The notes below the pieces were generated by a model. That model was not told where the DNA came from, made no database searches, and saw nothing but the letters and a program-made list of their open reading frames with translations. Position numbers and translations under genes: made by a program. DNA of 64,000 nucleotides from Karstenula rhodostoma CBS 690.94 (Eukaryota; Ascomycota; Dothideomycetes; Pleosporales; Didymosphaeriaceae): NCBI GenBank assembly GCA_010093485.1, contig MU001515.1:267518-331517 (forward strand), written 5' to 3'. Below, in pieces: positions 39,753 through 61,400 of the stretch. Numbering within the stretch: the first letter of the stretch is position 1; each line of letters begins with the position of its first letter.

Positions 39753-41630
39753 TCATTTGTACAGCTTGTAGCTGGCCCGGTCAAATATCGCGGGTTCCTT
39801 CAGAATCTCTACTCGAGGTTCCTGCCTTGGGATGTCCTGCCCATAAGACCTTCGCAAACGTTGCAATCGCCTGCAGAGTACAAGGTCTGATGGTTCGTTA
39901 CACTCAGCTACGACTTCCTTGATTTCCTCCTGCAGTAGCGGCGCCCCTCTTTCCAGCACAACCTCCGCGTCCAATCCTCTCTCAGCCTCTAGCTCCGATA
40001 CCGCTTCTTCGTCACTGACCTGTTCGGTGTACGCCGTAGATCTAGGGCCGGAACTTCTTCAGCGCAAGGACAAGTGCCTTGCATCCGTACTTGCTGGAAT
40101 CCCAGTTCCTTTCGCTTATGGGCCAAACTCCTAATTCGAATCGGATTGGGTGTACTAGGCCGTTCTCTCCTTTCTGCTGCAGTATTGCTCCCCAGCCTTT
40201 CTTGCTGCTGTCCACCATAATAGTGATCTCGCGAATTGGCTCTGGGTATTCAACGGACAACGGACACCAAGGCTGGCGCTTGTAATCCGGTCTTCCATAA
40301 GTTTTTGCGGCCAGGATGCTTCCATGGTCCAAACAAAGTCGGCTCGTTTTCGAAGCAGGTTGAAAAGCGGCGATGCCACTCTAGTAAAGTCCCTCACCCA
40401 GATTCTGCAGTACATCTTTCGCGCAGTTTGGCGCATACCAGCTAACAATCTTCTAGACTTTCTTGGCTGCTGGGTGTCGGCCGTTCTTGTCAATCACGTA
40501 CCCTACAATGCCCATGGATATAAAGCACCTGTCCAATCTCTTCGCAGACGCCGTTACACCTACCAGCTCTATATAGGCAAGTACGCGGTCTAAGTTAATA
40601 ATATGCTCTTCGCCGAATTCTATGCGCAATAGGCTCTCTGTCGTAGTCTGTCTTTAGTCCTTTAACCGTAATACTATCTATGTACGGTATATACCGCGGG
40701 GCGATCTGGTCGTGAAGGATCTTAGAAACCGCTCGAACGAGTTTTGCCAATGAGTTGGTGGTGTCTATTAGAAGGGGGAACTGCTCAACGAAGCTGAGAG
40801 GGGTTGCGAGCGCTGTGATTGCCATATAATCTTCATTCCGGGGAATCTGGTCGTACCCCGAGAAGACGTTGATTAAGGAAACGATATGACACCCTGCAAA
40901 CTCCTCTGAGAACTCATTAGGGTTCGGCGGGAGGTTAGCGTCCCAAACTGTCAAAGTTGATACTTCGTGCGCTCGGGCAAGCCGCGGCAAAACAGCGTCC
41001 CGAAACTGTAACCTTGTTGATCTTCTGCGCGTTGTTGATGAGGCTGTAACTAGCGTCCTTCTTTCTAACCAAGAACCACGGATTCCCGTAGGGACTGCGA
41101 CTGTACCTGAGAGTCCCTCAGTCGAGCTGCTGCTGTACCAATTCAATAACTGCATCACGCAGTATACTTGGAACTGGGAATTATGCTTCCTTCCAGGCTT
41201 CATGAGGGACCGTGTGAGTCTACACCAGCGGTGCCACGCCTGTATGAACCCGCCCGCTCTCTAAAAAGCCAAAGGAGATTCCAGGTTCGCGCTGATTGAG
41301 TATTTCTTCTAGCATTTCCCGTTACCTTAGAAGGAGTTCTGGACCGAAGTTCAGTTCCGCTAGTCACTCCTTCGTAAGCTATTGGCCTCCCGGCTATTTT
41401 ACCCATCGTGGCAGGAAGTACTAGTCGAATGGCTGTTCGCTACTATCGGTGGGGCTGCGGGCGTTAAGTGCCCTTTCCTTCCAGTCGCTCCTTCCTTCAA
41501 TGCCGTGTAGTTGAACGTTAGAATTATATACTGGTGGCACCTTCTTATCTTTGGCCTTATATATAGTAGCCACTTCGAATCCGATGCCCTCTCGCTCGGG
41601 AATCCTAGCCTGTTTCTTTTAGAATACTTC
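39753..41630 (-). mobile_element. Decayed Ty3/gypsy retrotransposon, RT-RNase H portion
   Basis: Minus-strand frames, broken by stops and shifts, encode recognisable pol segments. From about 41,630 to 41,210 there is pre-RT sequence (K-A-K-D-K-K-V-P-P). From 41,200 to 40,600 there is reverse transcriptase (S-G-Y-D-Q-I-P; T-N-S-L-A-K-L-V-R-A-V). From 40,490 to 40,330 comes the connection region (F-T-R-V-A-S-P-L-F-N-L-L-R-K). From 40,330 to 40,042 comes RNase H (V-D-S-S-K-K-G-W-G-A-I-L-Q; E-R-N-W-D-S-S-K-Y). No integrase or intact LTR is visible. The aspartate pair of the RT active site is degenerate. It is a dead element. Confidence 0.8.
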
Positions 41631-41639
41631 CACGCGCCT

Positions 41640-41870
41640 TACTATGTGTTCTTCTAAATTTATTTACACTGCTATATTATAAGAGATAGGTATATAACTA
41701 CTATATACTACTACTCTAATTTATAGTATATATATTATATAAAATAGGATTATCTACTATAAACACTATTAGGTAAGGGGTAGGTAATAAATTTATAGTA
41801 AATATTATCCTTTATAATAGGCTCCTATTTTAGTAAGACCATTAGAGTTAGAATTCTAGGAGTGAATATT
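41640..41870. repeat. Extremely AT-rich tract beside gene A
   Basis: About 230 bp dominated by TA-rich words (tatagtatatatattatataaaa). It contrasts sharply with the GC-rich gene that begins 90 bp later. The composition is what repeat-induced C-to-T mutation leaves. No coding content. Confidence 0.6.
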
Positions 41871-41963
41871 CTACTAGAGGTTACCTTTGCCTTAGTATTA
41901 CGATGTATAGGCTCTTTAGAGAAGAGCGGGTTTCTCGGGACGGGAACTAGTTTATGATATTGG

Positions 41964-43685
41964 CTACGAGAGATCCTGTACATACTCGTTATAGCGGCGC
42001 CGCAGCAGTGCTCTTCCCTCTTTAGTATGCATTAGCTTGTTGAAGCGGTCGCTACCTAGGGTCCTGCTCATCTCCTCCTCTTCCTGCGTCGATAGCTCCA
42101 CGTGCAGCTCCGCGAGTTGGCGCTCAAGCTTTGCCAAAAGCTCTAGGCCTGCGTCCGAGTTTCGCATCTGAGCAATGTAGATTGCTATTACAACCTCGTT
42201 CAGACACTGCATTTCAGCTGGGACTCCAAGCGTGAAAGGGCCATTTTCATGGATAGTGGCAAACTCGTCCTCGCTTGTGTGCTCATCGCACACGATACTG
42301 TTCATGTTGGTAATGTACGCCAAGTAACTGTTGGTGTAGGTAGCGACGTTGACGAAGAACTGGTCGTGGTTCAAGGCAAACATGATATGTCTGTGACGTG
42401 TAACAGGAGTGTGGCTAGCATCGGAGGCTGAGATAGGTGCGGGCTGGTGCTGGAGCGACCTAGGTATATCCTCGAAACCTTGAGCAGGTTGGCATTGATG
42501 CCGTTGCTGGAACAACTGGTCTGTGATACAGACGAATTGCAACATTTCCTCGCGGCGAATTCTATGTAGCGCGTTCTGCCGTCGCACAGGCTTCAATTCC
42601 GCCGAGGCGAACAGAACCATTTCAGCCTTTTGGTTCTTTGACAAGAAGACGCCGTCTGGCCGTGCCTCAAAAAGATACTTCTTCTCGTCTTCGTGCAGAA
42701 GACCAAAGCGATAGCCCTTCTCCTGGGGTACAAAGCGTACAATCTCCTGAATCCTTTCGCCGAGAATTGACGCAGGATGAGTGCTGGAGTAGCCGCCAAA
42801 CAAATGCGAGCTTTGCACCTCGAATTGGGACCTAGGCTCTTGCGGAGGCTCTCGGCGGACGGGTGGGAGAGGGTCCTGGTGATGGGCAGCAGGGTGCACC
42901 GGGGTTAGTGGATACGCGGGGCCCGCGTTGGAAGGCTCTCGCGACCTGTCCGCAATGGCAGTCGTGTGTGACGGCACCAGAGGGCGCCGTCGTCGCGAGC
43001 TGTGTGCCGCCTGCAGCAGGGGTGCCAGTCTATGTGCGAGGACGGGTCTTTGGGTAGCACGATGGGTGGGCGTATCAATGGGCTCGGGGTCTTCCTGGTC
43101 CTGGCTGGTCATGCGTGCGGTGCGGCGCAACGGCTCTAGGGGGTCGGGCGCGGCAAGGTCTGGGGCGCGCACTGGCTCGACGTCGAGTAATTGTACGGAC
43201 CGAAGGGCCTGCGGCGCGTCGGTAATGCTGGAAATATATTTTGGATCCTCGGGCGTGCCTGCGCCCGCCGGGCGCAGGTTGTTATACGCGTGCAGGATGT
43301 GGGTAAAGATGCCGACTGGCGTAGGGGACATGAAAGAACTGGCGTGAAGGGGCGGGTTGGGCGCAGGGCCGCCTTCGGTTTCGCAAATTTTGGCCAGCAG
43401 ATGTCGCATTTTCGGGCTCGATTCAGCGGCTGCGATGAGTTGTCGCGCAAGGCGGACGTCGGGTGCCGTCACGATGCCTTCTGCGACCAAGTAGTTCAAC
43501 GTCGCTTCTGCGCTGCGTCCAGATTGCTGGAACACATGGAAGGCGGGGGCGACTCGCTCAGGCGCAGTGGATGCGGAGAAGGGCAGATGGTCGGCGATGG
43601 CGCGTCCCAGCGTCGTAAGGCGGCCGTTGGGGAGGCGGGTGTTTGTGCGCCAGGCGCGCATCCGGGCGCTCTCTAGGGACGCCAT
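41964..43685 (-). CDS. Module gene A: PD-(D/E)XK nuclease-like protein, 573 aa
   Basis: An intact intronless frame runs from the ATG at 43685 to the stop at 41964. Residues 1-105 are helical and include F-S-A-S-T near 36-40. Residues 105-300 are Pro/Arg-rich and probably disordered. The core (about 305-520) holds P-D-G at 343-345, E-L-K at 363-365 and I-R-R-E-E at 376-380, then F-F-V-N-V-A-T-Y-T and a helical end. The P-D...E-x-K arrangement is the hallmark of restriction-endonuclease-fold nucleases. Core, motif spacing and N-terminal F-S-A-S-T are shared with A' at 47,979. It is divergently transcribed from gene B with 337 bp between the ATGs. Its 3' end lies 90 bp from the AT-rich relic. 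Nuclease activity is an inference; it could be a catalytically used or a binding-only fold. Confidence 0.8.
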   Translation of the reverse strand: MASLESARMRAWRTNTRLPNGRLTTLGRAIADHLPFSASTAPERVAPAFHVFQQSGRSAEATLNYLVAEGIVTAPDVRLARQLIAAAESSPKMRHLLAKICETEGGPAPNPPLHASSFMSPTPVGIFTHILHAYNNLRPAGAGTPEDPKYISSITDAPQALRSVQLLDVEPVRAPDLAAPDPLEPLRRTARMTSQDQEDPEPIDTPTHRATQRPVLAHRLAPLLQAAHSSRRRRPLVPSHTTAIADRSREPSNAGPAYPLTPVHPAAHHQDPLPPVRREPPQEPRSQFEVQSSHLFGGYSSTHPASILGERIQEIVRFVPQEKGYRFGLLHEDEKKYLFEARPDGVFLSKNQKAEMVLFASAELKPVRRQNALHRIRREEMLQFVCITDQLFQQRHQCQPAQGFEDIPRSLQHQPAPISASDASHTPVTRHRHIMFALNHDQFFVNVATYTNSYLAYITNMNSIVCDEHTSEDEFATIHENGPFTLGVPAEMQCLNEVVIAIYIAQMRNSDAGLELLAKLERQLAELHVELSTQEEEEMSRTLGSDRFNKLMHTKEGRALLRRRYNEYVQDLS

Positions 43686-44022
43686 GGGAGCGTCGGCGAT
43701 CCTGGCTTGGTGGCTTGATCAGGTGTACCGTGTGACGCGGGCGAGCGCGAGCAGGCGCCGGGCGATGCGACTAGCCCACGACTAGCCTAGCGCGATCAGG
43801 CGGGGTCAGGCCGATTCGTTAGCGCACGCCGGGCGAACGAGCAGAACGGACAGCTCTCTCTGGGCGATGTAACTAGCCCGCAGCTAGACTAGCGCAAACG
43901 GGCGGGTCGTGCGTCGGATCCTTGGCAGGACAGGGGTGCGCCCCTCAACAACAAACACACACACGACCGACAGCGCTCTGCATCGCTCTGCATCGCCAGT
44001 CTCGCCGCCCATCCTCTTCGCC
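43686..44022. promoter_or_regulatory. Bidirectional promoter of genes A and B, with direct repeat and GCGCTAG sites
   Basis: The 337 bp between the A and B ATGs contains an imperfect direct repeat of about 48 bp (43,760-43,807 and 43,862-43,909; both begin gggcgatg and contain actagccc and ctagcgc). CTAGCGC occurs at 43,787-43,793 and 43,889-43,895, with a one-mismatch copy at 43,819-43,825. Read on the strand of gene A these are GCGCTAG. The same word is tandemly repeated in the promoter of A'/B'. Confidence 0.6.
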
Positions 44023-45122
44023 ATGGCAGCCGAGGAGGCTGCGTCCCATGTCGTCTTGTACGCCCTGGACGCCCTGTACGCCGCTACCCACGCCATTGAT
44101 CCGCAGGTCGCCGTTAAGCCTGCTCTCCTCGCCCAGCACAACATCGTCGTCACCGACGACACTATGCGCCGCCCCCACCCACATCGCACCTCGCTCGATG
44201 CCATCGTCGCCCACATCGCCGCCCACCCGCAGCACGACCTCCACCCGCTGGGCCCGTCCGCCAACATCGCGCGTCTAGCATGTCCGGGCCACCAGAGCCC
44301 TCGCGAGCTCGTCGCGCTTCTCGCAGGCAGTGCACGCGACATCACGCACGCCGTCCAGGATCCTCCGCCGCCACCCACGACCGTGGAGCAATTCGGCGCT
44401 TGTCCACGAGACTGCTGGCTGTCCCTGCTACGCACGCCGCCACTGTGGGACTGCTCGGCTGCATGGGGGGTCGAGTGCATCCTCGGGGTGGGCCAGCAAT
44501 GCAGCGGCGAGTGCGGCGGCGAGCTGCCCTACTGCCACGAAAATGCCGTCGGATGCCTGCTGCCAATCCGGACCCAGCTTGCCACCGATCAGCCAATGCA
44601 TCTGGGCGAGCTCCTCTGCACGCTGGTGCTGCTGCATCGCCAGCTCGCGTGGAACTGCGACTTCGCTCATACTGTACGTCTCCTTTGCCCCTGCATCTAC
44701 CTAGCTAACGTGTATAGATCACTGTTGTCTCCGTTACCGCTGATGCCGATGTGCGAGTACACGAAGCCTCCGTCCACCCATCGCCTACCGATGACGGTCC
44801 ACCTCGCATTCGCATCGTCAAGTGCCTTGATCTGAACATCGCTGATGCAGATGGCAAAGACAGCACTGCACGGGAGAACTGGCTCGACGTCATATCATAT
44901 ATCGCCTTCACCTACGAAGCCAACCTGGACCCTACCGAGCCTAACGAGCAGCCGCTCAAAGTCAGAACCACACAAGAGAACAACCAGGATATCATTGCGC
45001 CTGAACAGGAGAATATACAACCCAGTGCTCTAACTCCAGGCGAAAAGGCGGCCACCAAGACGACTACAAAGGGTGAAACGCCGCGCAGGCCACGAACGCC
45101 GCTCGCACCAAAGAATGTGTAG
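44023..45122 (+). CDS. Module gene B: unknown partner protein, 351 aa
   Basis: Exons 44023-44673 and 44718-45122 flank a 44-nt phase-0 intron (GTACGT..GCTAACG..TATAG). The N-terminal half is Ala/His/Pro-rich. A conserved block, also present in B', spans the intron: E-L-L-C-T-L-V-L-L-H-R-Q-L before it, and after it T-V-V, V-R-V-H-E-A, a hydrophobic I-R-I-V-K-C-L and W-L-D-V-I-S-Y-I-A-F. The last 50 residues are basic with S/T-P motifs (T-P-R-R-P-R-T-P-L-A-P). Cysteines are frequent in residues 130-185. There is no signal peptide or membrane helix. I do not recognise the family. The divergent pairing with a nuclease-like gene, found twice here, suggests that it works with it (partner, inhibitor or targeting subunit; undetermined). 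Confidence 0.75.
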
Positions 45123-46411
45123 GCAAGCTTAGCAGGATAAGGCATTGAACTGGCGTTAATTCTTTGGGGCAAGGTCGGCGTAATGGATAAGCTCTGTTTA
45201 CATTCGCAAGCCGATAGCCTCTTTCGATATTCCGTAGATTGTTTTACTCCACTGCCGCGTGCCTCGAACACCGGCATAGCACAGACTTAGGGCAGTTAAA
45301 CCATTGCCGAATTCATCAAGTTACCTTTTCAAAGACATGTTCAGCGACAAACGCACCTTTAGATACTGCAGGTCCTACAGGTCCAACCAACTTCTTACAT
45401 CTTCAGGGTAGCTCCGACAAACCACCATACGGCAAATACACCTGGCCCGGGACAAGACAAGAACACGCTGGCCAGGTTCAACAGCTATAATGTCGAATAA
45501 CCATATTTAGAATGGCCTGCGGAAGACCTCCAGAAGCAGTCTCCCAAGGAAGCGGCTTACCCGCTAAAAGGACGTGTGGATCGATGTTGTCGCGGTTCCA
45601 AGCCGCCCATGCAGCATGCGGAGACGATCCGGAGACATGCAGACGTTGACAGGCTGGTGCTACTCTTCTTGATCAAAGCGGCGACAGCCTTGACTGTGCT
45701 TGTTATTGCTTACTCGACGACCTTCAGCAGCGACCCGATAACCTGTCGCGGCAGTGCCCCGCCCAAGTCTCGGACGGTCTGCAAGATGGACTGCCACTCT
45801 TTAAACTGTAGCTAGAAGGCTGCACTCTCGTTGTACAGATCTGCCTTCTAGGTTCCAGATCTAGAGTTTATTGGCCTTGGTAACCCGAAGAGTTGGCACC
45901 CTACTGCATTCTTGTACTGCGGTTCGCCGCGGTCTGCAAAAGCGCGCGAAGTGTCACATTTCTTAATCTAAAGAGTTGGCGCCGGCGCCGTAGGTGAGCG
46001 GCGCGCTGAACCTTCGGTCGGTACCTATGGTAATGGCAATCCCCACGACCTGGGATTTGGAAGTTAGCCGGCGTCGGGAAGGACAGTTCTTATAAAGACT
46101 AGGAGAGGAAAGATGGACACAAGCGGGTGGCGCCGCCTGCGTCGAGGGACATTTTATGGATAGAAACAAGCTAGAGACAAGATTTATTGCTATGAGTAGA
46201 AGACCGCGTGCGCAGGAAAGCCGTAGCAGCGATCAAGCGCCTGTGTGCGCCAACCCCAGTCCGAACAAACTCCAAGCCAATGCAAATGGTCATAATGAAT
46301 CCGCTACCGTGACTTGCTCCTGATCCCACCCAACCCCTTCGCATGGCCATATGGTGTCGTTACTCGTAAATCGTTCCGACTAACATTCTCCGCGCGCAGC
46401 GTGCCACTGCA
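45123..46411. other. Convergent spacer between B and B' with repeat relics
   Basis: No intact gene. On the minus strand, 45,640-45,820 gives a protein-like stretch (E-W-Q-S-I-L-Q-T-V-R-D-L-G, then Q-V-I-G-S-L-L-K-V-V-E) that then meets a stop or a GTAAGC donor-like site. It may be a gene relic. An LTR-like segment at 45,893-45,968 matches 30,529-30,605. A gagttggc word flanks it at 45,889 and 45,971, followed by the palindrome ggcgccggcgcc. Confidence 0.45.
45893..45970. mobile_element. LTR-like fragment matching 30.53-30.60 kb
   Basis: It aligns along its length with 30,529-30,605 (ttggcaccc, gccgcgg, gcgaagt.tca.att), mostly with transition differences. On the minus strand it reads TGTGACACTTCGCG, a start typical of fungal gypsy LTRs. 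Confidence 0.45.
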
Positions 46412-47651
46412 TCACTGGTTAGGAAGGGGGGAAAGCGGCTTCCTTGGGGATGATTGCGGGGTCCGCTTTGCGCCGCGGGGAGTGAGATGCGGTGCGTTCT
46501 CTGCATCGTTGACATCGAGAGCGAACGGCTTGCCTTTGGCGCGGATAGGTAACGGGGCAGTGTTCTTCGCGTCGGCGACATGCTCGGGTTTGTCCTGGGA
46601 GTTGATGTGGCCAACTGCCGTCACTTCTGTCGTCACCTCTGTCGGCACCTCTGTCGTCACCTCTGTCGTCACCTCCTCGGCAGCGTACTCTGGGGCAGAG
46701 CGGATCGCTGTGGGAGTTGCGTGCTTGTGCAGAGCGGCATTGTCTGGGCGGGTGAAGCACAGGTAGGAGAGGACGTCAAGAAAGCTGTCGGTGGGCTGGG
46801 CGTTGCGGAGAAGGTTGTGGGTGGGCTGGACGTCGCAGACAAGGTCCTCGAGCGGGCAGCTGAGACACTTGGCGATGTGGATGACCGGCGCATCGTCTAC
46901 CTGGTCGTCGGCGCGGCAGTCGATATAGGCTTCATGAACTCGGACGCACGTATCGGTGAAGGTAACAACGGTGACCTGTTCAGGATGGCACATTAGCCAA
47001 AGTGTGTGTGTGGTAGGATACCGAAACGCGACTTACAGTAAAGCGACCGCCAGGCAGGCGGTAGTGCTTGGCGAAAACAAGTTGGCGATGCAGTAGGGCA
47101 AGCAAGCAGTACAGCTCGCTGGCGAAGATAACATTGCCAGCGGCGGATTTCTCCGTCCTCCAGTCATACAATGTGCACCCAACAATGTCGGCATGGTCGT
47201 CACCCGTAATGACCTCGGACATCTCCCACCGAGGAAACGCTCTATCCGGAAGCTGCATGTCGGCGCCCTTCACGAGGTAACGCTCCCACTGATCAGCAGA
47301 GGGACCCGGATCACGCAGCTGTAGTGGAGAATGTGACGAGAGGTGCTTGAAACGCGAGTCCGTGAGCTTCCATGCAACCCCTTCCAGCAGGCCTGCCCAG
47401 TTGTCGCCCCAGCCCTTGGGGGGAATGGTCAAGCGACTCACGACGCTGCGGAGCGGGTCTAGATGTCGGCGCGCGGCTGGCATGTCAGGTGTCTGCGTAT
47501 CCATGGTGATGTCGTTGCGCGTGAACAAAGCGTGGCTACCTACGCTCCTGAGCAGTCGGGAAACGCGCTTGCAGCACGACGCCAGGCGTCCTGAGACGGG
47601 GGAAGCATTGGCGACGTCGAAGTCGGCCAGGCGCCTGCGTTGGTAGTTCAT
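46412..47651 (-). CDS. Module gene B': paralogue of B, 392 aa
   Basis: Exons 47651-47037 and 46975-46412 flank a 61-nt phase-0 intron (GTAAGT..GCTAAT..AACAG) at the same codon boundary as in gene B (Thr before, then x-T-V-V). The ATG at 47651 is the first plausible start; the frame upstream has only non-ATG starts. The block shared with B is E-L-Y-C-L-L-A-L-L-H-R-Q-L, T-V-V, V-R-V-H-E-A, I-H-I-A-K-C-L and F-L-D-V-L-S-Y-L-C-F. The C-terminus has a V-T-T-E tandem repeat and a basic S/T-P tail (S-P-R-K-P-L-S-P-L-P), like B. The N-terminal third is basic and Arg-rich. The family is unknown. It is divergent from A' with 327 bp between the ATGs. Confidence 0.75.
46619..46680. repeat. 12-bp coding tandem repeat in B'
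   Basis: About four to five units of a 12-bp repeat (gtcacctctgtc on the plus strand) encode a V-T-T-E run in the B' tail. The repeat keeps the reading frame, so copy number could vary without breaking the protein. Confidence 0.7.
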
Positions 47652-47978
47652 GGCGGCGGTGGCGGGGCAGTGGTTGTGGTTGCGGTTGCGGGTGAGGTGA
47701 GCTGGCGGGAGCGCGTGTCGTGATGTTCGTATTTGTTGTTGTTCGCTGCCGGCGCGGGGCGGGCTTACTAGTCCTGATTTGTGCAAGTGGCGCACACAGC
47801 GCTGGAAAATTGCCCGACGCGCGAGGAACTTGCGCTAGGATCTGGCGCTAGAATCTGGCGCTAGACTTCCACCGGGTCCCTGGTCTATATATATATATAC
47901 ATACACTGCACAACTTCTACACCAGTCGCCACTTCCACACCAGTCCCGTCGCCTACCAACGCCCACATACCCGCTGCC
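47652..47978. promoter_or_regulatory. Bidirectional promoter of B' and A', with 13-bp GCGCTAG tandem repeat
   Basis: Three tandem units of 13 bp place GCGCTAG at 47,832, 47,845 and 47,858 (unit GCGCTAGAATCTG with small changes). They are followed by a TATA run (ctatatatatatata, 47,885-47,899) about 80 bp before the A' ATG. GCGCTAG points toward A', as it points toward A in the other module. Confidence 0.65.
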
Positions 47979-49994
47979 ATGGCGCCGCAGTATGTGCCCC
48001 TGCAAGGCATGGACAACGACGCCTGGCATCGTGAGGTCTGCGCCACCGAACACGAATTTCAAGGCCAGCTGCTCAAAGACCGCCCCCTCGGCACTATTAT
48101 TTCGCCGAAGCAGTTCTCAGCGTCGACGATGCCGAGAGCTGCCTTCTTACAGCATCGGGCCAAGTGGACAGTCCCTCTCAAACCTACCGACAACGACGAC
48201 AATGTGCGTGCCGCTATGATCGAAGCGGGGTTCTTCGCCCAGCACAATTTAGACCGGGCTATTGTTCGGCTCGCCCGTGCTGATTTGTCTGCCCAGCATG
48301 ACGCCTATGTTGCAGCTATGGGCGACTACGGACGTAAAGACCAACCAACCACATCTGTGCAACAGCACCTACAGACGGGCATATATGAAACACCCCTCAC
48401 CACATACATGCTTATGACCGAGTTCCCGTCCGGCGCCGATCGCCCCGATCTATCTCGTGTCCAGACATGCTCAGTCACTAAGGATGATGATGCGGACGAC
48501 AGCTCCCTCGCTACAGATACTGCTGCAGACGATTCCTCCCTCCCTCCGCAAGGCCCAATCCCTTTTCGGGGTTTCAAGTCTGAGCCAATCTTCGATGATA
48601 TCGATACAAGCCTTACCGACGAACTTAGTGACATGGCGCTTAGTTCATCGACTACGGATTCATTTACCACAGATTCGCCGACGGCACGTCGACACCAGAG
48701 TAACCCAGCCATCCCGGCAGGCAGCTCACGCTCATCTTCCCCAGACGATGACCTAAACCCTGACAAGAGTCAACAGTACGTTCTGAAGAAGAAGTCTGGG
48801 TATGAGGTACAAACCTCCACTCATAACGTCGCGCATTGTGCTACAGTCATGACACATGCATTCTCCCGTCGCGTGCACAAGATCATCCGCTTGGGAAATG
48901 AACAAAAAAAGTACGTGTTTGGACGGCGCTTGTCAGAGTTCTTTCCAGGAGATGCGGAAGGAAATCCAAACCCGAAGGACTATCTGTATGCGGCCATCCC
49001 TGATGGTTCGTTTTCAGTTTTGCTCGACGATGGGACCACCGATGCATTTGCGCACATAGAGATCAAGGCCAACCGGCGGAATAGCACGGCACAAGGAGAC
49101 GCGATACGTCGAGAAGAGACTGCTGAGCTTGCATCAGTCCAGTACACCAACCGGAATCTCAACTGCCCAGATACTCAGAATCCGATTGATCCAAACGAAG
49201 TCCACCACAGCTTGTTCATTAACCTTGACCATGACGGTTATTGGTTCGTGGTCGCTACGTATACCGGAAAGTGGCTCGAGTATCTCTCAGACATGAAGGC
49301 CACAACGGAAGTGCCGGACATGACGGAAGATGATTTTGCAGTGTTTCAAGAGATTGGATCGTTTAGTCTGAAAAGGATTGCGAAGATTACAGAATTCGAT
49401 ATTATCTTCTCAGCCATCATCGACGCACAACTGGAACGGACTGAGGCGGGACGGCAACTACTACGTGATCTGGAGGCCGATGACCGGAGACGTCGCCAGC
49501 TGAGCGCAGACGAGCTCGCGAAACTGAAAGAGGTGGAGGCAGACATAGTGGATACCCTTTCAAAGACCCAAGCTGGGATTGCGTCACTTCGCGATCTACT
49601 CAGACACAGCCAACGTACCCCTGATAAAGGAAATGGTGTGGTAGACACTGCAGCTGGAGAGACATCTACGAACACCGAGGTGGGTCGAAAAGATTCCGAC
49701 GACAAGGGACTGGTAGAGTCTAAACTGCTGCAAAACCCCTTCGCCGGAGAGCCTTCTGAGCGACACAGCGACGGGAACAACACGCTGCAGCCCCCCGTCC
49801 GAGATAATCGTCTTACCAGGTCAGTTCGAAAGGTTAAGAACTTCTTTGGTCTCTTCCGCAATGGGGGCGAGAAAGCTGCAGAAAGCGCAGAATCACCGCG
49901 CGTTCGAGCATCGCGATCGCGCTCGTCCAGGCCAGCCATGGCGAACGCTGCAGACCAGCAGAAGGTGTTCGGCGCCCCCAAAGATGGCGAGTAA
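47979..49994 (+). CDS. Module gene A': paralogue of A, PD-(D/E)XK nuclease-like, 671 aa
   Basis: An intact frame runs from the ATG at 47979. The N-terminal 110 residues carry F-S-A-S-T near 46-50 and a helical region matching A. Residues 150-265 are Asp/Ser-rich and disordered. The core (about 280-500) has P-D-G at 341-343, E-I-K at 361-363 and I-R-R-E-E at 376-380, then the F-V-V-A-T-Y-T strand and the T-E-A-G-R-Q-L-L helix. The distance from Asp342 to Glu361 (19) equals that in A. A coiled-coil-like stretch follows at 495-540. The tail is basic with R-S-R-S-S-R. The stop lies inside GGCGAGTAAGTC, a good donor sequence, so the annotated C-terminus could be extended by a further exon. Function unknown; nuclease chemistry is inferred from the motif. 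Confidence 0.8.
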   Translation: MAPQYVPLQGMDNDAWHREVCATEHEFQGQLLKDRPLGTIISPKQFSASTMPRAAFLQHRAKWTVPLKPTDNDDNVRAAMIEAGFFAQHNLDRAIVRLARADLSAQHDAYVAAMGDYGRKDQPTTSVQQHLQTGIYETPLTTYMLMTEFPSGADRPDLSRVQTCSVTKDDDADDSSLATDTAADDSSLPPQGPIPFRGFKSEPIFDDIDTSLTDELSDMALSSSTTDSFTTDSPTARRHQSNPAIPAGSSRSSSPDDDLNPDKSQQYVLKKKSGYEVQTSTHNVAHCATVMTHAFSRRVHKIIRLGNEQKKYVFGRRLSEFFPGDAEGNPNPKDYLYAAIPDGSFSVLLDDGTTDAFAHIEIKANRRNSTAQGDAIRREETAELASVQYTNRNLNCPDTQNPIDPNEVHHSLFINLDHDGYWFVVATYTGKWLEYLSDMKATTEVPDMTEDDFAVFQEIGSFSLKRIAKITEFDIIFSAIIDAQLERTEAGRQLLRDLEADDRRRRQLSADELAKLKEVEADIVDTLSKTQAGIASLRDLLRHSQRTPDKGNGVVDTAAGETSTNTEVGRKDSDDKGLVESKLLQNPFAGEPSERHSDGNNTLQPPVRDNRLTRSVRKVKNFFGLFRNGGEKAAESAESPRVRASRSRSSRPAMANAADQQKVFGAPKDGE

Positions 49995-50363
49995 GTCTTG
50001 TAACCTCTCCCTGTGCGACGAAGAAGTACAGCTGGTACGTACCTCACCCCTATCTATCGCGTAACAGGATCGCAACTAACATAGTAAGGATTTCACATTA
50101 AACCCTTTAGAGGCTGGGTACTGGAGTTACCTTACACAACTCCCACGACTTTTGCGAGGATGAGGATTGCATCAATAATGCTTTGGTAAGGCTCTGCACA
50201 TTCGTGAAATCAGATTCTCGGATAGTGATGGGCCCTTCACTACATCGGCAAAGGAAAGTGGGCAATACCTCATTCACAAGCACGTTGACACTATGGGAAA
50301 GTCTTGGTTGCAAATTCTATTGGGGAACTAGTAGATACATGCCCGAGTGTACATCCTGTAGAT

Positions 50364-50526
50364 CACATAAAAACAATACCATAATCGTGAAGCGCATGCC
50401 GGCATCTCGTGAGCCACCTCACCGTGGTCTCATCGATGCCCAAGCGCAGATCATATGAAAACAAAGTCTATAACCGTGAAGCGTCTGGCAGTATCTTGTG
50501 AGCCACCTCAACGTGGTCTCATCCAT
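50364..50526. repeat. Diverged tandem duplication, about 75 bp, offset 89 bp
   Basis: Two copies share cat.a.aaaaca, ccgtgaagcg and gtgagccacctca.cgtgg (second word at 50,409 and 50,498). This fills most of the space between A' and the membrane-protein gene. Confidence 0.6.
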
Positions 50527-50543
50527 ACCTATCCATACCGAAA

Positions 50544-51254
50544 TCATCCATCCAGTGCTTGGAGGGCCCAGCGCTGGACTTGCCTCATTTTCAAGAACCG
50601 AATCCAAAGATCGCCCCTTGAATGAAGTCCGGGGTCGTTTCCGTTCGGGCTGTGGTCGATCTGGGTGTCGAAGAGTACCTTCAATTGATAGAAGTAGTCA
50701 TTCCCTTCCAAGATGGCCAGGACGACGCCGATGAATGTGAGGATAGATATCTTCACCCGCCTTGGCAAGACGTCCCACATAGGCCGACTGATGTCCAGGA
50801 GAGCTATGGTGATATGGGCGACGGCGTGTCCAAGAAGCGTGGGCTGCATGTACAGTAAGACGAGAAACATGCCGCCAATGAGAAGAAGGTAGCGGTGGTC
50901 GTAGCAGCGGCGGAAGAAGGATATGAAGCCGGTCCACATCTTTGCTCCGATTTTGCGAAGAAGGGAGAGGTCCTGAGCTCCGTTGCTGGCATCGATATTG
51001 GCAAGGGCGGTCAATGCGCGGGTAACTTGTTGCTCGAGTTTTGCAATGTGCTCGTTCTGCGCGCGAACTGCTTGAGCCATGGAATCTCGGACCAGATCCC
51101 TGAGAAACGTAACTTCGTCATCTTTGGTGCGGATGAGTCGATTGAGATACACCCTCTGCACGTCGCTAAGCGTCCCTTCAATGTCCTCTTGGTCGGCCTC
51201 GGGATGGTGGATTGGCGTAGGATGGATTCCGGCAGCGGAACTGGGACGAGACAT
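50544..51254 (-). CDS. Coiled-coil membrane protein, 236 aa, unknown
   Basis: The ATG at 51254 sits in a good context (ccaccATGTC) and the frame ends at 50544. Residues 30-95 form a heptad-like helical region (E-H-I-A-K-L-E-Q-Q-V-T-R-A-L). Two or three hydrophobic segments follow: Y-L-L-L-I-G-G-M-F-L-V-L-L-Y-M, A-V-A-H-I-T-I-A-L-L and I-S-I-L-T-F-I-G-V-V-L-A-I-L. The C-terminus is hydrophilic. No family is recognised. An acidic/Pro N-terminus and no signal peptide suggest a cytosolic N-terminus with a C-terminal hairpin in an internal membrane. It is near the nuclease-like module but separated from it by a repeat. Confidence 0.65.
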   Translation of the reverse strand: MSRPSSAAGIHPTPIHHPEADQEDIEGTLSDVQRVYLNRLIRTKDDEVTFLRDLVRDSMAQAVRAQNEHIAKLEQQVTRALTALANIDASNGAQDLSLLRKIGAKMWTGFISFFRRCYDHRYLLLIGGMFLVLLYMQPTLLGHAVAHITIALLDISRPMWDVLPRRVKISILTFIGVVLAILEGNDYFYQLKVLFDTQIDHSPNGNDPGLHSRGDLWIRFLKMRQVQRWALQALDG

Positions 51255-51394
51255 GGTGGCAAGTGGTAGGCACACACGTGCTGTTAAAGTGATGTGAGAA
51301 GGTAGCGTTGTGCGATAGGTGGGGAGTTGTGCTTTCGTTGGTGTGGGTAATGGAATTGTTATACATGAAGCAATTGCCTCACCGGAAGCCGCTT

Positions 51395-51504
51395 ACTAAC
51401 TTCAACAAAGAGTTTGCTACTTCTAAACAAGTATTTTGTGGAACCCAAATAAGGAGCTTGCCAATTCCAAACAAAGAGCTTGCTAATTCCAAACAAAGAG
51501 CTTG
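51395..51504. repeat. 22-bp tandem repeat
   Basis: Units of the form aattccaaacaaagagcttg recur at about 51,460 and 51,482. A diverged copy with ttctaaacaa and caaagagtttgc lies at 51,400-51,430. It lies upstream of the membrane-protein gene. Confidence 0.65.
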
Positions 51505-54055: not shown

Positions 54056-54378
54056 ACGGGCGCCTCCCTATTGTCTTCCCCGACCCCGGGATCCCTATAT
54101 AGCCTGTATACCTGACTATAGCTTCTCCATTCGGCACTCAATATCGAAACCAGGAAAATCTTGGGCAGCCTAGGGAAACATGTCGTTTAAGAGTCTGTTG
54201 GGCTATGTAACCCAGGTAGCCGGCTCTGTAGAGGAGTGGCGCGTTGCTGATGTTTGGATTAACAAGAAGTATGTCGTAATAACGGGTTACTAAGCTGATA
54301 ATCTTCTAATATCGCGGGGAACCTAACCGGCGGCATTTAGGGATCCCGGGGTTGTAGAAGACGATAGGGAGGACCCAT
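54056..54378. repeat. Inverted pair of a dispersed repeat
   Basis: 54,058-54,100 (+) and 54,330-54,378 (-) are related copies of the sequence also seen at 1,178. Both contain cctcccta.tgtctt and ccccgggatccct. They flank about 230 bp of AT-rich DNA. Confidence 0.55.
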
Positions 54379-54689
54379 GGGTGCGAGGACGCAGGGCGTA
54401 GGTACAGCTTCCAGATAGAGTAATTATTGTTGTGCTCGGTTGGTTGAGCTGATTGCTTAAGTCGACGGCGTAGGTACTGAAAAGCCTTTCTCCGCGGTGT
54501 CTCGTTCAGCCCCTGGCTGAAATCGACGCCAGGTAGTCTTGTAACCACCCATTTATTCTATATAATAAACCCACGAGATTTGGCCACAGCCTTCCCGTGT
54601 TAATTCGTCCGGTGGATGATATTACCTGTGAGAGTCCCGATTAAAGGAGACAGCTTCTCCTATAGACTTAGAAACTTGGATAATTTGCG

Positions 54690-59422: not shown

Positions 59423-60571
59423 CTAGCGCACTGGTGCAGCAGCTTGATCGTCTCCTGCAGCGCCCTGCTCAGCCCCAGGCGCAGAACCAGCACTGATGTC
59501 GCTGAGCGCTCTTTTGATTGCATCCAAACGAGGGCCCATGGCATAGTCCTCCAAGTTGCGCAAAAACCTTCGATAGCGCGTCATTGGCTCCTGTTCATCC
59601 ACCACGAACTGACCCACGCGTTCCATGTGGTACGCGCTCTTCTCTGGGTTGTAGAAGTGTACCCAGAGAATAACCAAGTTGCCTTCGAAAGTGGCCGAAA
59701 AGTGCATCGTGAGCACTACGTCCGATTCGTTTGGATTGTTGGGACCCTGAGCGGCGCTGTAAAGAGAGCGGAGGTGTTCGTTGATAACTGCGCCATCACA
59801 AGCTCCTTGGGCGGTGGCTTTGTACATGGCGTCGTTGCTCTTCCACTGGATCGTGTAGTAGGGGAAGAACATGCGAGGTGTCACATTAAGTGGGCAAAGC
59901 TGACCAGTCCGAGGATTTCGTACCATCTCCAACATGATCTGGGCTTCCTCGTCTCGGTTGAAGGGAACCGTGGCTCCAGCCGCTTCACGCCTTGTGAGGT
60001 AGCCGTTAGCGACATCCGGTTGAGCTGGTTTCAGGCGCATATCTTGACGGGCCTTGGGTGAGTTTGGGAGGAAAGAGTCGTCCAGGCGTATGTTTGGGTG
60101 ACGGGTTGAGAGGGCGTAGCCTCCATCGCGGAAACATTCGAGGCCGATGCCTTTCGCGAGCAGCTCCTTTGCAAGCTCTTTGCCGCCTTGACGGGCCGCG
60201 TGAGCATTTGCAACAACGTACGCTGCCCTAGGCGACGGATGGTCTCGTGCTCTTCCGAAGAGGTCGTTGATGAACTGCCGAACAGGTGGTGACATCGGCT
60301 CCTGGTTGTCAACAAGCACGCCGGCTATGGCCAGTTTATCGTACTCGCCTGGTTGGCTAGCCATCGATTCAGAAATATTGCTTCTGTAGTCGAGATCTAG
60401 CTCAGCAAGGCGGGAGGGGTCTTCGACTCGGGAAAGGTTTTCTGCCGTCAGAGGCCAAGCTGGGGCGCTGTTGTCTGCAAGGGCGGGCGTGAGGGTTTCG
60501 CCAAGTCTGTGATGTTTTGGAGGGTGAGGACGCGAGTCGACGGTCTTGCGCTTGCGTGTGGGAGGGGACAT
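59423..60571 (-). CDS. DUF7924-like protein with PD-(D/E)XK-type core, 382 aa
   Basis: An intronless frame runs from the ATG at 60571. The N-terminus (M-S-P-P-T-R-K-R-K) is basic and could be a nuclear localisation signal. Residues 30-160 are helical. The core has Q-P-D-V-A-N-G-Y near 180, then F-F-P-Y-Y-T-I-Q-W-K-S near 240, Q-G-A-C-D-G-A-V-I-N-E-H-L and H-F-S-A-T-F-E-G-N-L-V-I-L-W-V-H. This order (PD, then x-W-K after a hydrophobic strand, then a Q/A-rich helix) matches the fungal DUF7924-type family of restriction-fold proteins. Gln stands where the classical Glu of E-x-K would be; I recall that as possibly normal for the subfamily. The C-terminus is Ala/Gly-rich. Function unknown. Confidence 0.75.
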   Translation of the reverse strand: MSPPTRKRKTVDSRPHPPKHHRLGETLTPALADNSAPAWPLTAENLSRVEDPSRLAELDLDYRSNISESMASQPGEYDKLAIAGVLVDNQEPMSPPVRQFINDLFGRARDHPSPRAAYVVANAHAARQGGKELAKELLAKGIGLECFRDGGYALSTRHPNIRLDDSFLPNSPKARQDMRLKPAQPDVANGYLTRREAAGATVPFNRDEEAQIMLEMVRNPRTGQLCPLNVTPRMFFPYYTIQWKSNDAMYKATAQGACDGAVINEHLRSLYSAAQGPNNPNESDVVLTMHFSATFEGNLVILWVHFYNPEKSAYHMERVGQFVVDEQEPMTRYRRFLRNLEDYAMGPRLDAIKRALSDISAGSAPGAEQGAAGDDQAAAPVR

Positions 60572-61400
60572 GAGGAAATTGGTGGGTTGGTGTTGTGAGA
60601 AAAGCTGATTAGCCTGCGCGAAGCAGCGCCCTATGCAGACGTAAGCCAGGAGACTCTAGGAATAGTGAGGGTAGTTAGGTACAGCTCCATACCTCGCAAG
60701 AAAGGCTGCCGAGCGGCAATTGAGATTGATAGCAGCCTGATCGTAAGACTGGCGGGGTCAGGCTTAGTAGGCGACTGGCTTCGAAAGCACCCGGCAGAAT
60801 TAGGCAGCGAGCTCGTGGGCGCAATTCGACGAGCTTGGAGGGAAGACTTGGTCAAGAAGCGGTTGTGTTGATCGAGGACGCTGCGTAGTATCGATAAGCT
60901 GGCCCCGCGATACGTCAATCTAACCCTCTTTTGACAGATCGCGCACAGCCGCCAGCAAGCCTTCTCCCGAACACCAATACCATTAGTAGCGAATCGTTGG
61001 CGAAGGAGCGGTGGTGGAGCTGATAGCGGAGGCGTTAGTAGCGGAGGATCAGCAGCGTAGCCGGAGGCCTACATAGCGAAAAAGGTGGCTGCGCCTATGA
61101 GTCGCGTGCCCAGCAGGGGTCAGGAGTCATGACTCAAGACGGCGAGTCAGGTAGTGTCGGGATGGAACGCGCACCACCGACCGCCTACTAAGCATCACAC
61201 CTCACCCACCAACTTCATTTCACATACAGCGACATCATCCCAAATTCCGGTAAGACCGTATTCGGCTCATTGTATCGTACAAGTCGACCCCAACTCTATA
61301 TGTGAAGCTATACATTGATTCCCGAACCCCATCCGTTTCCCGACTCGCACCCAGACCCGCGCTGCATTGTAATAAGGCGTCCCCCCGCGTTCCATCCCAG
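60572..61400. other. Gene-poor flank
   Basis: A plus-strand frame at 60,665-60,871 (C-R-A-A-I-E-I-D-S-S-L-I-V-R-L) has some protein character but no identifiable family. A run of ag.agcggaggcgttagtagcgg at 61,005-61,060 echoes the 56.4 kb repeat words. No gene is assigned. Confidence 0.35.

Follow-up and report, generated by a model that had tools for sequence, protein, structure and literature searches.

Organization of the locus

We analyzed a 64-kb stretch of the genome of Karstenula rhodostoma CBS 690.94 (positions 267,518-331,517 of the 789,831-bp contig MU001515.1, called C24 below; this stretch is referred to as the window), which contains two copies of a divergent gene pair, A-B and B'-A', facing each other. 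All results refer to this one genome. The interval is bounded by the stop codon of gene A at position 41964 and by that of A' at position 49994.

Module 1 consists of genes A and B. Gene A (41964..43685, minus strand) is intronless, and its predicted product of 573 residues comprises an N-terminal FSAS motif, a linker, a PD-(D/E)XK-like core and a probably helical tail. This assignment is based on the open reading frame, a blastp alignment with A' and the relatives in modules 2-4; the helical tail was taken from a low-confidence structure model. The putative catalytic signature, PDG-x17-ExK (residues 343-365), is encoded at 42591..42659 on the minus strand. An intergenic region of 337 bp (43686..44022), with the heptamer CTAGCGC at 43787 and 43889, separates A from gene B (44023..45122, plus strand, 351 residues). 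Gene B is built up from exon 1 (44023..44673), a phase-0 intron of 44 nt (44674..44717) and exon 2 including the stop codon (44718..45122), which encodes a TPRR motif in the tail.

Module 2 has the same layout in the opposite order. Gene B' (47651..46412, minus strand, 392 residues) contains exon 1 (47037..47651), a phase-0 intron of 61 nt (46976..47036) and exon 2 including the stop codon (46412..46975), with an SPRK motif in the tail. The spliced product agrees in every residue with a hypothetical protein deposited at NCBI for the same strain. The intergenic region of 327 bp (47652..47978) carries CTAGCGC (GCGCTAG on the plus strand) at 47832, 47845 and 47858. Gene A' (47979..49994, plus strand), assigned from its open reading frame and a blastp alignment with A, is intronless and encodes 671 residues; the protein database holds a 528-residue model of it with an internal start. 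A motif scan located its signature (PDG-x17-ExK, residues 341-363) at 48999..49067 on the plus strand.

A blastp comparison of A with A' resulted in an E value of 3e-23 (28% identity over 299 residues), and B with B' in an E value of 3e-9 (33% identity over 132 residues). The introns of B and B' occupy the same phase-0 site, just before a (V/I)TVV block. A preliminary description, made from the DNA sequence alone, had proposed that A and A' as well as B and B' are homologous, that each A-type gene diverges from a B-type gene across about 330 bp, and that B and B' share a block around one conserved intron. Both alignments are significant, the distances between start codons are 337 and 327 bp, and the introns agree in position and phase, which bears out these three points. 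The same description called the locus a diverged palindrome. This is correct for gene order and protein homology, but the DNA itself has retained hardly any palindromic sequence: with 12-base seeds no inverted repeats of at least 30 nt were detected within 40500-51500, and 9-base seeds yielded ten short inverted pairs, the longest with 40 nt and 75% identity.

A family of at least five modules

Genome-wide protein searches were run with A, A', B', A3, A4, B3 and B5 as queries; B and B4 were not among them. Since scoring was confined to the best candidates, the copy counts are lower bounds. The searches identified at least five modules, all divergent and all located on the 0.79-Mb contig C24, and four of them are intact. 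Module 3 (C24 ~385.5-388.8 kb) encodes A3 with 605 and B3 with 398 residues. Module 4 (~593.1-596.7 kb) encodes B4 with 428 and A4 with 612 residues. In module 5 (~607.0-608.7 kb) B5 is intact with 356 residues, and A5 is reduced to an N-terminal stub of 70 codons. We chose the start codons of modules 3-5 ourselves; that of B3 agrees with the NCBI model.

The intergenic gaps of modules 1-5 measure 337, 327, 350, 382 and 434 bp. Four of the five B genes have an intron at one position (B 44, B' 61, B4 51 and B5 47 nt). B3 lacks an intron at the shared site, and the NCBI model of B3 also reads through it. Each of the four intact A genes found adjoins an intact, divergent B, and four of the five open B genes adjoin an intact A. 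The earlier proposal that A has an obligate partner is weakened by module 5, where an intact B adjoins the truncated A.

Three relics were found in addition: a degraded piece of an A' tail at C24:652 kb, a B3-like pseudogene with stop codons and frame changes within C22:727501-729900 (stretch L042), and a short, degraded B piece on contig C10. The pseudogene on C22 suggests that the family was formerly more widespread.

History of the duplications

Trees were calculated with the LG+G4 model and ultrafast bootstrap. Only columns without gaps entered them, 421 in the case of A and 252 in that of B, and some of these columns come from poorly alignable parts. The A tree has the topology ((A1,A3),(A2,A4)) with a support of 98, where A1 and A2 denote A and A'. 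In the B tree, B2 (that is, B') and B4 are split from B1 (B), B3 and B5 with a support of 100. For the four complete modules both genes favored the split of {1,3} from {2,4}, and the two alternative topologies were rejected in the approximately unbiased (AU) test with p-AU of 0.037 and 0.027 for A and 0.017 and 0.004 for B. One of these alternatives, with p-AU of 0.037 (A) and 0.017 (B), would make the two window modules sisters. Module 1 instead groups with module 3, located ~75 kb away, in both trees, and with module 5, ~295 kb away, in the B tree only; module 2 groups with module 4.

The congruence of the two trees, together with the rejection of the alternatives, shows that the pair was duplicated as a unit. 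Judged by the four complete modules, the A-B pair has been copied jointly at least three times. The facing arrangement in the window consists, as the same trees show, of two old lineages side by side and not of a pair of sister modules. Of two earlier suggestions, one is supported by at least five divergent modules with gaps of 327-434 bp and by the agreement of the trees, namely that A and B were duplicated together long ago and both retained. The other, a local inverted duplication of the pair in the window, is contradicted by the rejected sister topology. A recent inverted duplication was likewise ruled out by the trees and by the absent DNA palindrome.

That a single genome retains several anciently diverged modules, whose A lineages match their B lineages, would also be expected of a repertoire for non-self recognition or nucleic-acid restriction, in which each module answers one trigger and the old lineages are kept together. 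The nuclease signature of A described below fits such an allorecognition or genome-defence role, and fungal incompatibility loci are known to be laid out as pairs of neighboring genes, for example HET-S and NWD2. Against it, no Pfam match of such domains was obtained for the four A and five B proteins, and a PADLOC scan of six of these nine proteins gave a best E value of 0.018, a match of B' to an E1-E2 family that we took as chance. We regard this explanation as rather improbable.

Divergence and coding constraint

The A copies are only 22-29% identical to each other. The proportion of nonsynonymous differences (pN) is below that of synonymous differences (pS) in all eight pairs tested. For the pair B1-B5 the corresponding rates are dN = 0.40 and dS = 1.13. 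In the A pairs pS is saturated (0.78-0.84) and pN ranges from 0.475 to 0.535, compared with ~0.73 for both in random codons. These values indicate coding constraint on both A and B. The long open frames and the agreement in intron position and gene order are further arguments for function.

The nuclease signature of protein A

The signature PD(G/A)-x17-E-x-K is present with identical spacing in all four intact A proteins and in none of the five B proteins. PD-(D/E)XK nucleases are described by the bipartite motif (P)D-Xn-(D/E)XK (PMC1189080), and this bipartite catalytic motif is found in each intact A. In shuffled A sequences the PD-ExK pattern occurred 3-7 times in 5000 per protein. Only 34 columns are invariant across the four proteins, with P, D, E and K of the signature among them; FSAS near the N-terminus is likewise invariant. 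A further motif, (Y/F)EV(Q/S)xS, lies 53-66 residues upstream of the PD(G/A) motif. None of the four A proteins has a hydrophobic N-terminus as judged by crude hydropathy.

At the level of motifs, A is most likely a PD-(D/E)XK nuclease. Two database matches were discarded as chance, one of a single A protein to Phage_cap_P2 (E = 0.12) and one to the PDB entry of FAP70 (E = 0.011).

Protein B and its relation to A

Invariant motifs in all five B proteins are E-x4-L-x-L-L-x-R-Q-L, T-x4-T, R-x-H-E-A and L-x3-S-Y-x2-F. Each B also contains one [ST]P[KR][KR] motif, located in the tail in four of them and at residue 17 in B4; it is absent from the four A proteins and appears in 1-7% of whole-protein shuffles per B. 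We take this motif to recall SPKK or cyclin-dependent kinase (CDK)-type nuclear motifs. A structure model of B' was of low confidence, with a predicted local distance difference test (pLDDT) score of 39. A match of B to PreAtp-grasp (E = 0.044) was taken as chance, and the idea that A and B are paralogues of each other, with B as a degenerate nuclease, was dropped because hhalign gave a probability of 0.2%.

No strong membrane segment was found in the nine A and B proteins (best 19-residue mean 1.57), and no clear signal peptide in any of them by crude hydropathy. By the same crude measure an early stretch is moderately hydrophobic in B, B3 and B5 (11-residue means 1.74, 2.07 and 1.01), and B' and B4 are without a hydrophobic N-terminus.

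Co-expressed subunits are often encoded by divergent genes that share a promoter. The modules could be an ordinary, lineage-specific pair in which A and B belong, as subunits, to a nuclear complex for nucleic-acid processing with no role in conflict, amplified segmentally on one chromosome and kept for dosage or diversification. The layout typical of such subunits, the coding constraint on both genes, the core genes inside the same window and the presumed nuclear motif in all five B proteins are in line with this explanation. For a housekeeping complex, however, the fast divergence of the A copies, the truncation and the relics would be unusual, and so would the absence of relatives outside the species among the candidates scored in the protein database. 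On balance we consider an ordinary pair somewhat unlikely.

The shared intergenic regions

Between A and B, modules 1, 2 and 4 contain the heptamer CTAGCGC in two, three and two copies, in a constant orientation relative to the two genes. As background, 214 kb including the window have 24 occurrences when both strands are counted. Simulations produced a 7-mer present at least twice in each of three or more modules in 16 of 5000 cases. The intergenic region of module 5 is partly filled by imperfect tandem repeats with copies spaced 22 and 88 nt (stretch L040, 4306-4525).

Genomic setting and mobility

The window contains matches to the DCP2, CAF17, CTU2 and PTM1-like families, which we take to be core genes. 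All intact copies found are on C24, which had raised the idea of an accessory chromosome, but the core-gene matches argue against it and C24 is thus not a pure accessory chromosome. Two frames next to the modules were noted by eye, both on the minus strand and both with no Pfam match. A degraded frame beside A (window 40595-41260) resembles a gypsy-type reverse transcriptase, and a frame just past A' (50544-51392) contains long hydrophobic stretches.

A short hairpin repeat, similar to miniature inverted-repeat transposable elements (MITEs), is dispersed on C24. Copies lie at 1182-1230, 54056-54095 and 54333-54384 of the window and, in other stretches, at L039 1095-1237 and 8425-8482, L040 2510-2544 and 5224-5258, and L037 3514-3608. 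Copies in inverted orientation enclose module 5, and the repeat is also located near module 4. It had been a candidate for terminal repeats of these two modules, which was given up when it turned out to be dispersed. Around modules 1-3 no inverted repeats of at least 30 nt were found. The module flanks that were read have no gene-length third element in common; only three short matches of 21-35 residues connect the sequence past A', that flanking module 4 and stretch L041. The DUF3435 captain of Starship elements has three matches in the genome, two on C19 and one on C4, and none on C24.

The relics on C22, on C10 and at C24:652 kb, the hairpin repeat near module 4 with its inverted copies flanking module 5, and the reverse-transcriptase-like frame next to A could point to a formerly mobile element, either a two-gene transposon that was domesticated or is decaying, or the cargo of a Starship. 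The hairpin repeat is, however, also present elsewhere on the contig, modules 1-3 lack inverted repeats of at least 30 nt, and no near-identical copies were among the candidates scored. The captain matches lie on other contigs, and the flanks read share just the three short matches. A mobile origin of the modules is, in our judgement, distinctly improbable.

Proposed mechanism

Based on the conserved signature and the joint history of both genes we tentatively propose that A is a nuclease restrained by its own partner B, in a two-gene conflict module resembling a toxin and its antidote. We favor this reading with low confidence. A would be an intracellular PD-(D/E)XK nuclease with an N-terminal FSAS segment and a helical C-terminal tail, and B a cognate partner dedicated to it; one short bidirectional promoter would drive both. 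In such a module A would cut DNA, B would bind its own A and hold it in check, and the shared promoter would fix the dose of both proteins. The module lineages would then diverge with each B fitting its own A, and the modules might have a role in drive or in defence.

In agreement with two linked genes that are inherited together, all five modules are divergent and linked, with A5 as a stub. Module 5 is the sole unbalanced module (n = 1). It retains B and has lost most of A, which is the direction of loss expected if B is the antidote, and none of the four intact A genes lacks a B.

A more specific version is that the modules form an undescribed fungal family of selfish (spore-killer-like) or conflict elements, in which a PD-(D/E)XK toxin and an antidote of a new kind share a promoter. 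Several mutually diverged specificities would then share a core chromosome, with module 5 as an antidote-only resistor after the loss of its toxin. We consider this version unlikely as a whole.

A number of observations weigh against a nuclease restrained by its partner. The preliminary description had called A a nuclease-fold protein; the catalytic signature stands in all four intact A proteins, but the fold was confirmed neither by profiles, nor by PDB sequences, nor by a fold search. Pfam gave no family at cut-off for the four A proteins, and no relevant match to A was found among PDB sequences. An AlphaFold model of the A core, calculated from two sequences, reached a pLDDT of 39; the order of elements in this low-confidence model is plausible, with a helix followed by strands, the PDG strand, the ExK strand and another helix. 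The fold search with this model gave no matches at E ≤ 0.001. B, for its part, matched no Pfam or PDB family. No A was detected beside the B relics of C22 and C10: the four A-type genome searches gave no match at either site, where 2.4 and 3.1 kb were read around the relics. The codons were paired via the protein alignment, which somewhat lowers pN. CTAGCGC is absent from the intergenic regions of modules 3 and 5, and a looser statistic makes it less striking (15 of 2000 simulations); by this statistic it is rivaled by GCAGGCG, also with seven copies in three modules. Finally, the core genes on C24 and the missing captain match give no sign of module mobility.

Comparison with known systems

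In the protein database ~8000 candidates sharing most words with the queries were scored, a procedure by which distant relatives could be missed. No relatives outside K. rhodostoma were among them, and only three matches were obtained, namely the 528-residue A' model, B' and B3. A, A3, A4, B, B4 and B5 were part of the query alignments and none of them was returned, so that the database apparently holds no models for these six. Among the candidates scored, the A-B family is therefore represented in part only. Among the papers listed in the literature searches, no title or abstract start describing such a family was found; supplements and subscription papers were outside the scope of this search. 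Independent of any role in conflict, the modules are a clean case of a jointly copied orphan gene pair, in which gene order, intergenic length and, in four of the five B genes, intron position have been kept despite an identity of 22-29% between the A proteins.

The mating-type loci of basidiomycetes with HD1 and HD2 are built up from repeated divergent pairs of unlike genes with short shared promoters; A and B differ from these in having no Pfam homeodomain match. A PD...K layout was seen by eye in a DUF7924 (PF25545) protein encoded in the window itself (59426-60655, minus strand), ~9 kb from A'. The genome has seven DUF7924 matches, two of them on C24. A relationship of A to this neighboring protein was rejected, since hhalign of the A alignment against this one member gave a probability of 0.1%.

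The divergent layout with a shared promoter is also known from fungal effectors. SIX3/SIX5 and SIX8/PSE1 are divergent from a common promoter and their products act together (PMC10942635). These effectors are secreted, whereas in A and B, which have 351-671 residues, crude hydropathy reveals no clear signal peptide. AvrLm10A/B is another divergent effector pair.

In their two-gene logic the modules resemble, by description only, the nuclease types of CifA/CifB from Wolbachia. This system consists of two linked genes, of which one is lethal and the other counteracts it, with nuclease domains in CifB, variation in copy number and rapid divergence (PMC11342252). Unlike the modules described here, it is bacterial.

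The Spok proteins of Podospora and Fusarium share with the A-B family the fungal origin, the multiple copies and the PD-(D/E)XK signature. They are described as multicopy, intracellular fungal proteins in which the signature is required for killing, and which combine nuclease and kinase/resistance functions and a cysteine cluster in one protein (PMC6660238, PMC12693581). A and B, in contrast, are the products of two genes, and no kinase match was found in the four A and five B proteins; we set them apart from Spok on these grounds, without a direct sequence comparison. If the conflict reading holds, the modules would do with two genes what Spok does with one, placing killing and resistance on separate, separable proteins, and the restraint of fungal nuclease killers would become directly testable.

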